The position numbers and the translations under genes were made by a program. From the NCBI RefSeq assembly GCF_025371035.1, contig NZ_JANZXB010000001.1, positions 248,001 through 312,000 on the forward strand: a stretch of 64,000 nucleotides of DNA, read 5' to 3'. The DNA is from Sphingomonas sp. LC-1 (GTDB taxonomy: Bacteria; Pseudomonadota; Alphaproteobacteria; Sphingomonadales; Sphingomonadaceae). This document shows, in pieces, positions 49,916-52,253 of this stretch. The notes under the pieces are model-generated. The model was given only the letters and a program-made list of their open reading frames with translations. It had not been told where the DNA came from and made no database searches. Positions within the stretch are counted from its first letter, which is position 1. Each line of letters opens with the position of its first letter.

Positions 49916-50656
49916 TCAAAGCATCGCCATGCCGCCGTTGACGTGCAGCGTCTGCCCGGTGACATAGCCCGCCTCCCGCGACGCCAGATAGACGACAGCG
50001 GCGCCAATATCCTCGCCCTTGCCCAGATCGCCCGCCGGAATGCGGGTCAGCAGCGCGGCCTTCTGCGCCTCGGGCAGAACGTCGGTCATCGCCGAACGCA
50101 TGAAACCGGGGGCCACGCAGTTGACGGTGATGTTGCGACTGGCCAGTTCCTGCGCCACCGCCTTGGACATGCCGACGATCCCGGCCTTGGAGGCGGCATA
50201 GTTGGCCTGCCCCGGATTGCCGGTCGCACCGACGACCGAGGTGATCGAGATGATGCGGCCGAAGCGCGCCTTCATCATCGGCTTGGCGGCGGCACGGATC
50301 AGGCGGAACGCGGCTTCGAGGTTGACGCGGATCACCTGATCCCACTCCTCGTCCTTCATCCGCATGGTCAGGTTGTCGCGGGTGACCCCCGCATTGTTGA
50401 CCAGGATGTCGAGCTTGCCGCCCAGCGCTTCCACGGCTTGCGGGATCAGCGCATCGACCGCGGCGGGGTCGGACAGGTTGCAGGGGACGGCAACATGGTC
50501 CCCGCCCAGTTCGGCGCGAAACGCCTCCAGCTTGTCGATATTGGAGCCGGACAGCGCCAGCTTCGCACCCTGCGCCGCCAGCGCCTTGGCGACGGCCGAA
50601 CCAAGGCCACCGGACGCGCCGGTCACGAGGGCGGTCATTCCTGTCAGGTCGAACAT
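49916..50656 (-). CDS. fabG: 3-oxoacyl-[ACP] reductase
   Basis: A 246-residue NADPH-dependent short-chain dehydrogenase reducing beta-ketoacyl-ACP. The cofactor motif TGASGGLG and catalytic S140, Y153, K157 (ISITSVVG, YAASKAG) are intact, with the FabG-typical NAGVTRDNLTMRMKDEEWD. Its ribosome site (CGGAGAAT) lies inside the 3' end of the GxxExxY gene, two bases past which it starts. Confidence 0.97.
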   Translation of the reverse strand: MFDLTGMTALVTGASGGLGSAVAKALAAQGAKLALSGSNIDKLEAFRAELGGDHVAVPCNLSDPAAVDALIPQAVEALGGKLDILVNNAGVTRDNLTMRMKDEEWDQVIRVNLEAAFRLIRAAAKPMMKARFGRIISITSVVGATGNPGQANYAASKAGIVGMSKAVAQELASRNITVNCVAPGFMRSAMTDVLPEAQKAALLTRIPAGDLGKGEDIGAAVVYLASREAGYVTGQTLHVNGGMAML

Positions 50657-50658
50657 GC

Positions 50659-51087
50659 TTATTCTCCGATTCTTTGGTTCACGCGGAGACGCGGAGACGC
50701 GGAGGGAGTGTGGGAATTGACGATCCGTCGCACCCCTTCTCTCAGCGTTGCGCCGCCAAAGTTGATCAGCAGACCGACTGGCTGGCCGGTCAGTCTCAAA
50801 TAGGTCAGCAATTGTTTGGCATGAGCGGCGGAAAGCCGCTCGACGGATTTGATCTCCACGAGCAAGCGCTCGTCGACAAGCAAGTCAATGCGAAACGCGG
50901 CATCGAACGTCATGCCGTCAAAATGAATATCGACGGGGCGCTGCCGCGCCACGGGCAAGCCCATCTGAACGAGCTTGCCCGCCAGCACGGTTTCATAAAC
51001 GCTTTCCAGAAGACCAGGCCCCAAGTCGCAATGCATCCGCAACGCAACGTCGAGAACCGCTCCACTGATTTCGTCTATGTCCCGCAT
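50659..51087 (-). CDS. GxxExxY family protein, PD-(D/E)XK-like
   Basis: A 142-residue protein with the motif G25-x-x-E28-x-x-Y31 (LGPGLLESVYE) and a nuclease-like D68...E78-x-K80 pattern (FRIDLLVDERLLVEIKSVE), then the conserved QLLTYLRLTGQPVGLLINFG. Members are found sporadically across bacteria and have no known function. It interrupts the fabD-fabG order, and its ends lie in inverted repeats (50677-50704 and 51088-51115); the last residues SPRLRVNQRIGE are encoded by the repeat. ATG 51087 directly follows CGCGGAG. The longer reading to 51147 overlaps fabD. Confidence 0.85.
   Translation of the reverse strand: MRDIDEISGAVLDVALRMHCDLGPGLLESVYETVLAGKLVQMGLPVARQRPVDIHFDGMTFDAAFRIDLLVDERLLVEIKSVERLSAAHAKQLLTYLRLTGQPVGLLINFGGATLREGVRRIVNSHTPSASPRLRVNQRIGE
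50677..50704. repeat. Inverted repeat arm flanking the GxxExxY gene (fabG side)
   Basis: GTTCACGCGGAGACGCGGAG followed by ACGCGGAG, built of CGCGGAGA-type units. It is inversely repeated at 51088-51115, bracketing the gene at 50659-51087. Confidence 0.75.
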
Positions 51088-51115
51088 CTCCGCGCCTCCG
51101 CGTCTCCGCGCGAAA
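51088..51115. repeat. Inverted repeat arm flanking the GxxExxY gene (fabD side)
   Basis: CTCCGCGCCTCCGCGTCTCC then GCGCGAAA; the inverse of the arm at 50677-50704 with a few mismatches. It separates the fabD stop from the GxxExxY start codon. Confidence 0.75.
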
Positions 51116-52075
51116 TCAGAGCTTCGCCAGAAGCCCCTCGATATCATCCATCGTCACGACGCTGACCGCGTCCGCATCCGGCGCGATGCGCTTGACCATG
51201 GGGCCGAGCACCTTGCCGCCGAACTCCACGAACTGCGCCACGCCCGCCGCTTCCATTGCCAGCACCGATTCGCGCCAGCGGACCATGCCCGTCACCTGCG
51301 CCACCAGCAGCGCACGGATCGCGCCCGGATCGGCGACCGGCGCCGCCTCGACATTGGCATAGACCGGGACCAGCGGCGCGCGGATCGTCGCTTCGGCGAG
51401 GGCGGCGTCCATCGCGTCGGCGGCGGGCTGCATCAGCGGGCAGTGGAACGGTGCCGACACCGGCAGCAGGACGGCGCGCTTGGCGCCCAGGTCCTTGGCC
51501 AGCGCCACCGCCTTCTCAATCGCGGCACGGTGGCCCGAAATCACCACCTGGCTCGGGTCATTGTCATTGGCGACCGTGCAGACCAGCGGCTCGCCACCCT
51601 CGGCCAGCATCGCATCGACCGCCGCGCCCGCAATGACCTTCGCCTTTTCGAGGTCCGCGCCCAGCAGAGCGGCCATCGCGCCCTCGCCCACCGGCACCGC
51701 CGCCTGCATCGCCCGGCCGCGCAGCTTGAGGAGACGCGCCGTCGTCGCCAGATCGAAGGCATCGGCCGCGCACAGCGCAGTATATTCGCCCAGCGAGTGG
51801 CCCGCGACGAAATCGGCCTTTTCCGACAGACGGGCGCCGCCTTCCTTCTCCAGCACGCGCAGGGTCGCGATGGCATTCGCCATGATCGCGGGTTGCGCAT
51901 TCTCGGTCAGGGTCAGTTCGTCGGCGGGCCCCTCGACCATCAGGCGATAGAGATGCTGGCCCAGCGCCTCGTCGACCTCCTGGAACACCTCGCGGGCGAC
52001 CGGGCTCGCCTCGGCCAGTGCCTTGCCCATGCCGACGGCCTGGCTGCCCTGGCCCGGAAAGATGAATGCACGCAT
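51116..52075 (-). CDS. fabD: Malonyl-CoA:ACP transacylase
   Basis: A 319-residue acyltransferase loading malonyl onto ACP. The N-terminal FIFPGQGSQAVGMG and the nucleophile S94 in VAGHSLGEYTAL are diagnostic, with the catalytic histidine in PVSAPFHCPLMQ. MRAFIFPGQG at 52075 is the usual family start; an in-frame ATG five codons upstream (52090) cannot be excluded, as neither has a clear ribosome site. It heads the fabD-[GxxExxY]-fabG-acpP-fabF order. Confidence 0.96.
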   Translation of the reverse strand: MRAFIFPGQGSQAVGMGKALAEASPVAREVFQEVDEALGQHLYRLMVEGPADELTLTENAQPAIMANAIATLRVLEKEGGARLSEKADFVAGHSLGEYTALCAADAFDLATTARLLKLRGRAMQAAVPVGEGAMAALLGADLEKAKVIAGAAVDAMLAEGGEPLVCTVANDNDPSQVVISGHRAAIEKAVALAKDLGAKRAVLLPVSAPFHCPLMQPAADAMDAALAEATIRAPLVPVYANVEAAPVADPGAIRALLVAQVTGMVRWRESVLAMEAAGVAQFVEFGGKVLGPMVKRIAPDADAVSVVTMDDIEGLLAKL

Positions 52076-52253
52076 ATGTCGTTCTGCCATGAAACGGTAA
52101 TAGGATGGCCCGCGCGGTAGAAAGGTCGCCCGCCGCTGGCAAGTCCGAGGCCCCTTCGCCGCTTGCCTTTTGCCGCCAAATCGCTATGAGCCAGCGCACC
52201 ATTGGGCGGGAAGCACCTGCTTCACCCGCCCTCATGCCATTTTGGCGTGACGG

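Follow-up and report, generated by a model that had tools for sequence, protein, structure and literature searches.

Why does the gene for a small GxxExxY protein stand between fabD and fabG in Sphingomonas sp. LC-1, closely framed by inverted arms built of short repeated units? Bacteria commonly carry GxxExxY genes, whose name refers only to a motif. To our knowledge, their family (TIGR04256 / PF13366) is defined by sequence only, and we know of no mobilising activity for it. We analysed the locus in the window (the whole stretch of 64,000 nucleotides under study), its relatives in other genomes and the repeats that resemble its arms. The reading that we favour, and hold to be probable rather than assured, is that the GxxExxY protein acts as cognate enzyme to a dispersed family of arm repeats, working in a manner like that of REPIN–RAYT. 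The features at the junction are as follows.

Positions 51116 to 52090, minus strand: fabD, the host-operon gene upstream of GxxExxY; it served as a protein query.
Positions 51088 to 51114, minus strand: upstream inverted arm, TTCGCGCGGAG-ACGCGGAG-GCGCGGAG read in the direction of the gene, directly abutting the ATG.
Positions 50659 to 51087, minus strand: GxxExxY coding sequence, 142 amino acids, based on the open reading frame, profile matches, conserved residues and dN/dS.
Positions 50678 to 50704, plus strand: downstream inverted arm, TTCACGCGGAG-ACGCGGAG-ACGCGGAG, encoding part of the C-terminal tail.
Positions 49916 to 50656, minus strand: fabG, the gene downstream of GxxExxY.

The arms are 27 nt each, 93% complementary and separated by 383 nt. 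The right (upstream) arm takes up the gap between the fabD stop codon (51116-51118) and the GxxExxY ATG (51085-51087), and a GGAG within it is a possible ribosome site for GxxExxY. At the other end only 2 nt lie between the GxxExxY stop codon (50659-50661) and the fabG start codon (50654-50656), so the ribosome site of fabG, GGAGA (about 50663-50667), falls inside the GxxExxY coding sequence, in its last codons. An alternative longer start of the reading frame (51147), which would overlap fabD, is less likely. The compact cassette described in an earlier note on this DNA, with one arm filling the gap before the ATG, the other translated in the tail and the fabG GGAGA inside the gene, is therefore what the junction holds; the inverted arms are there as well, with outer ends at 50678 and 51114, one base inside the 50677-50704 and 51088-51115 given before.

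Profile searches make the protein a clear member of the GxxExxY family (TIGR04256 / PF13366 PDDEXK_3), with E=1.3e-35 and 122.8 bits against a cut-off of 22 for PF13366, and E=5.2e-35 and 120.3 bits against a cut-off of 35 for TIGR04256, which bears out the 142-residue GxxExxY reading frame proposed between fabD and fabG. Across 24 diverse homologues D68, K80, Q92, Y96, E28 and N109-F110 do not vary, E78 is kept in at least 90%, and the nuclease-like D68/E78-x-K80 pattern noticed earlier is real as sequence. Together with QxxxY (Q92/Y96), the residue pattern is by its sequence that of the PD-(D/E)XK nuclease superfamily. The conserved residues are evidence for a nuclease, the activity of which is putative. 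The gene is under purifying selection, with a dN/dS of about 0.05: 0.045 and 0.046 against its two closest relatives (L057 and L061, 120 core codons); with five others it is 0.08-0.15, and saturation affected three of the ten comparisons. No solved structure similar to the protein was found at E 0.1.

A nuclease of this kind might serve the host, in defence or repair, as a relative of Cas4 or RecB, with the arms as marker or regulatory sites. The QxxxY motif is consistent with such a function, as are weak PADLOC hits, some to Cas4 models and some to a PDDEXK model associated with reverse transcriptase (best 3.8e-06), one Cas4 model being matched by 9 of the 24 members. However, Pfam recognises PF13366 in all 24, and at E 0.01 no further family appears apart from a single Cas4 match, which stays under its cut-off; the protein between fabD and fabG scores 17.1 bits with the Cas4 family PF01930, whose cut-off is 22.7. 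The two genes that adjoin GxxExxY are fabD and fabG. Moreover, 56 of 121 genomes in the genus lack the gene, and the arms are paired and element-like in their organisation. We consider a host function of this type very improbable.

We compared the locus with GxxExxY genes of other bacteria. A scan of named genomes took the best 80 of at least 568 GxxExxY relatives (three of the 80 identical to panel loci), and six were dropped for short flanks. Inverted arms scoring at least 30 within 220 nt of the gene were found at 65 of the resulting 74 loci, against none of 370 control windows elsewhere in the same loci (maximum 29), so the arms at GxxExxY are not due to chance. An origin by chance or composition was likewise rejected by comparisons with reversed patterns and shuffled sequence; in an earlier set 49 of 59 loci were bracketed at scores set against a shuffled maximum of 24. 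Exact CRCRRAG occurs at least once in both aligned arms at 60 of the 65 bracketed loci, and at least twice at 46; in four of the remaining five the arms carry sister units (CGCCAAG, CGCAACG or CGCGACG, for example), whereas the units of the fifth, L177, are ambiguous. According to record titles, the bracketed genes belong to Pseudomonadota, Verrucomicrobiota, Chloroflexota, Bacteroidota, Acidobacteriota, Cyanobacteria, Planctomycetota, Spirochaetota, several desulfobacterial groups and candidate phyla, although outside Sphingomonadales the loci are mostly from metagenome bins, where misbinning is possible.

The arms also occur away from the gene in these genomes. Of 50 gene-bearing genomes, 45 contain an exact match or more to three heptamers with one-base spacers and 25 contain at least 10, many of the hits being convergent pairs 66-120 bp apart. 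Flavobacterium rivuli, one of the nine loci of 74 without arms at the threshold, has 38 such hits in its genome. In G277 the hits listed all lie on one contig, and in one genome of the 50 (G310) the reversed control (11) exceeded the hits (7). Widespread CRCRRAG-type repeats would gain a candidate enzyme, should the gene and the repeats prove to be functionally tied.

Do inverted arms simply end any small gene cassette? As a contrast set we used S23 genes (PF05635), which encode a four-helix-bundle protein unrelated to GxxExxY, at 29 loci from many phyla (L248-L273 and L275-L277). Inverted arms were present at 18 of the 29, against 1 of 145 controls. These arms consist of short tandem units with a period of 7-8, such as TGACTGG and CAGGATT, and heptamer arms of the GxxExxY type were seen at one locus of the 29. 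A general cassette end is therefore rejected, since S23 arms are built of other units: the architecture is common to both protein families, and the arm unit differs with the family. The S23 elements, known as 23S rRNA intervening sequences (IVS), resemble the GxxExxY cassette in having a small gene within inverted arms of short tandem units, and differ from it in their unrelated protein family (here PF13366) and in their arm units. S23 genes with their own arms are a possible parallel system. No S23 gene was found in the genome of the window and seven other Sphingomonas genomes.

We then mapped the arm repeat in the genome of the window (G000; 4.15 Mb in 48 contigs), where the PF13366 gene is single-copy. 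The pattern CGCGGAGRCGCGGAG, with at most one mismatch, has 66 sites there, compared with 19 for the reversed pattern, and most of the sites are in convergent pairs. The same arms are thus dispersed over the genome. At least 25 gene-less paired elements were delimited among the loci fetched: 17 of 122-147 bp, six of 223-262 bp and two shorter. They are apparently intergenic (flanks judged by eye), and their conserved parts, again by eye, are the two ends, about GATTTGGTTCGCGCRGAGGCGCGGAGRACGCRGAGGTGTC. The arms are tandem heptamers, not each a palindromic REP. Most loops are unrelated (of 153 loop pairs, 7 score at least 26, against none in shuffles; one L024 element, missed by the delimiting script, was added by hand for this comparison), so the elements did not arise from each other by plain deletion; their origin as internal deletions of the gene copy was not supported either, as the loops share little among themselves. 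The only gene noticed between paired arms in this genome is GxxExxY. The earlier note had supposed that mobility would need a helper; this is probably backwards, since no gene is a better candidate than GxxExxY for an enzyme that serves the arms.

Further families of dispersed palindromes (around TTCAGCCTGAGCGAAGTCGAAGGC and CCCCGGCGAAGGCCGGGGTCC) were seen beside the elements or inside some of the loops, at L026, L029, L030, L034, L041, L046 and more element loci of G000. Some elements are nested or stacked, with CGCGGAG-type arms inside or beside CGCGAAG-type or CGCAGAG-type arms (L032, L037, L046, and C2 of G034 near 396130-396430).

All six elements that we folded form a long stem joining arm to arm, with z from -3.85 to -12.05 (DNA parameters). 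Such folding would suit a role in RNA, in which the arms form a transcript hairpin processed by GxxExxY or RNase III, in the manner of an IVS, and the nuclease regulates the operon mRNA or its own expression instead of moving DNA. The same architecture with other arms at 18 of 29 loci of S23, the protein of rRNA IVS elements, points in this direction too, as does the Coxiella IVS, for which PMC4990558 gives a terminal stem of 28 bp, a further likeness to our elements, and excision by RNase III. However, a role in RNA leaves unexplained both the dispersal of gene-less copies and its dependence on the gene. Also, arms pair within an element no better than between elements (p 0.14 and 0.06), and hairpin pairing as a conserved feature is not supported beyond this weak trend; the hairpin may therefore not be the substrate, and the result points to recognition of sequence over that of a perfect hairpin. 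A search with Rfam at 20 element loci found no family on any element at the gathering threshold (one neighbouring tRNA matched), so no known RNA family identifies them. We regard a role confined to RNA as unlikely.

If GxxExxY is indeed the enzyme of the repeats, their number may be expected to follow the gene. We counted arms across the genus with the pattern TTCRCGCRRAGRCGCRRAG, allowing one mismatch, in 121 Sphingomonas genomes, of which 65 carry GxxExxY (60 with one match) and 56 do not. The median was 47 hits in carriers and 1 in non-carriers (Mann–Whitney p 1.8e-18), and at least 10 hits were found in 59 of the 65 carriers against 5 of the 56 non-carriers. Six carriers have fewer than 10 hits of this first pattern. 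In three of them (G004, G022 and G068) a different arm type stands at the gene, and arms of that kind are dispersed: CGACG-type in G004 (23 hits), CACAAAG-type in G022 (22) and G068 (14). The others have few hits with any pattern tried: G011 has CGCAAAG arms at its gene, yet 4 hits; G087 has 9, with arms at its gene not detectable; and G106 has 6 genome-wide. As for the non-carriers with at least 10 hits, G031 and G089 show element relics between fabD and fabG (by eye), G020 is an assembly 79% complete and without fabD, and G047 (14 hits) and G119 (12) have arms with neither GxxExxY nor a relic.

The association also holds when descent is taken into account. A FabD+FabG tree of 53 genomes provided 11 independent pairs differing in gene presence. 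On average, hits of the first pattern alone followed the gene in 7.2 pairs and opposed it in 0.5 (median p 0.039, range 0.008-0.29); addition of the CACAAAG pattern gave 8.2 pairs with the gene and 0.04 against (median p 0.008), and addition of both CACAAAG and CGACG gave 7.8 and 0 (median p 0.008). Another run of the test was similar, the averages over both spanning 7.2-8.3 pairs with the gene and 0-0.5 against. In a Pseudomonadota panel, 24 of 150 genomes carry GxxExxY; at least 5 arm hits were found in 15 of the 24 carriers and none of the 126 non-carriers, any hit in 20 and 6, respectively, and p was 3.8e-05 within one family (20 carriers, 15 non-carriers), the arm pattern having been written after inspecting the arms of that very family. 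The association between gene and arm repeat is well supported.

These counts bear on whether GxxExxY could instead be a passenger, a useful gene captured by repeats that another enzyme (a RAYT or an insertion sequence) or host recombination spreads. GxxExxY is not known to have any mobilising activity; exchange of the cassette among relatives could be ordinary homologous recombination, the contents of slots change freely, and two arm-rich genomes, G047 and G119, lack both gene and relic, all of which would agree with capture. On the other hand, arm copy number can be predicted from the gene in both panels and on the tree, and in G004, G022 and G068 a difference in arm type accompanies a difference in the gene. 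S23 genes carry other arms (the heptamer at 1 of 29 loci), so capture is not random. We therefore doubt that GxxExxY is a passenger, and the cognate-enzyme reading is followed below.

Arm type goes with protein type. Arm distance correlated with protein distance over 100 distinct protein cores (Mantel r 0.45, p 0.0002), and did so in 49 Sphingomonadales rows (r 0.46) and in 51 others (r 0.39; p 0.0002 each). On a quick protein tree the heptamer classes required 46 changes against 70.8 when shuffled, none of 200 shuffles being as low. The CGCAGAG, CGCGGAG and CGCGAAG classes cluster on this tree; CGCAAAG, CACAAAG and CACAGAG showed no clustering individually. One clade (SH-aLRT 95), made up of genes from bins of Lysobacterales, Chloroflexi and Chthoniobacter, has CGCGGAG arms in common. 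The arms are thus matched in type to their GxxExxY gene.

We examined the history of the fabD–fabG site itself. GxxExxY lies there in 25 of 30 panel loci fetched (out of the 65 carriers) and in a Novosphingobium, by which a recent isolated insertion is rejected; among loci L121-L187 no other GxxExxY gene flanked by both fab genes was found at the thresholds used. In 24 gene-negative genomes the junction measures 11-43 nt in 15, is longer and unrelated in six, and holds a decayed relic in three; cassette relics were seen at L212 (G089), L200 (G031) and L201 (G027). In two pairs of loci, L050/L076 and L053/L078, the fabD and fabG flanks are 86-99% identical (100-nt windows), whereas the stretch that begins about 130 nt ahead of the start codon and runs through the whole gene is 56-85% identical and has another arm type. 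Gene and arms therefore appear to have been replaced together in one junction. On the left the breakpoint is in the end of fabD, a few tens of bases beyond the arm, which makes ordinary recombination possible. What the earlier note had called a small mobile cassette thus stands as an arm-bounded unit, given the empty junctions and the joint replacement, and falls as a recent isolated insertion, given the shared site; relatives do have empty sites and the arms do go with other copies of the gene, the reverse of the two outcomes it had named as telling against it. One locus titled Arthrobacter sp. TPD3018 (L108, QDFQ01000005.1) has the Sphingomonas fabD–GxxExxY–fabG arrangement and is probably mislabelled.

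How might such a system work? We infer that GxxExxY binds the arms, cleaves at them and mobilises what they enclose. The gene and arms at fabD–fabG would be a gene-bearing copy of the dispersed repeat family. The protein would recognise an inverted pair of arms, each about three heptamers long (mostly CRCRRAG, with a period of about 8 and the outer end TTCRCGC), perhaps when the pair is extruded as a hairpin, and would cut there; segments bounded by arms could then be copied or moved to other sites through host repair. One resident copy in the fabD–fabG operon would serve many gene-less copies in trans, as RAYT is supposed to serve REPINs. Several results weigh against this mechanism: movement of elements was not seen, G047 and G119 are rich in arms but have neither GxxExxY nor a relic, G011, G087 and G106 carry the gene with few hits, nine of the 74 loci are not bracketed, and pairing within elements shows no excess. 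The tie to a repeat family gives the GxxExxY protein a testable substrate.

According to PMC3116915, RAYT is a single-copy gene, mostly vertical at the species level and flanked by its repeat, and REPINs are many dispersed short inverted doublets with a repeat flavour matched to the gene. Dispersed inverted doublets and a single-copy, repeat-flanked cognate gene are likewise seen here (at least 25 elements and one gene in G000). In contrast to the Y1 transposase of REPIN–RAYT, the protein here is of the PD-(D/E)XK type by its residues; REP is palindromic, whereas the arms here are rows of heptamers; and the GxxExxY–arm system is found in many phyla, another difference. No transposase family was matched by the bracketed gene at the thresholds used, only PF13366 and, weakly, Cas4. 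It is possible, at slightly less than an even chance in our judgement, that GxxExxY represents a separate mobilising class, marked by a PD-(D/E)XK protein, the lack of a transposase, tandem-heptamer ends and a cross-phylum distribution, with S23 as a parallel system. If so, there would be cross-phylum mobile mini-elements independent of REPIN–RAYT, a second and unrelated solution to the arrangement of many tiny elements with one resident gene; S23 with its arms would be a second system of the same logic, and the parallel suggests a wider principle. We found no description of a GxxExxY–repeat pairing in the open-access literature (which leaves most subscription papers and bioRxiv preprints outside), nor any paper there with the arm sequences as query. 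GxxExxY is named in PMC8934634 and PMC12085832, and PF13366 in PMC9756366.

Finally, we compared element-holding slots between relatives. Genomes about 90-95% identical differ in these slots, which are often occupied by other palindromes. No clean empty site with a target-site duplication was found in G025 and G064 opposite the slots of G000; comparison of 400 kb each of G018/G091 and G070/G034 revealed presence/absence differences and no target-site duplication, and no transposition of elements was seen in the comparisons made. Like classical MITEs, the elements are short, non-coding, dispersed and apparently intergenic (by eye), with inverted ends; unlike them, they have no transposase gene seen within the same ends in G000, no target-site duplication in the polymorphic slots examined and inner sequences that are mostly unrelated between copies. 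At one orthologous element (G070 C180 about 394600, G091 C1 about 852500), the loop is reverse-complemented between nearly identical arms; template switching at inverted repeats could be an alternative source of this change. The other orthologous sites compared had no clear loop inversion.
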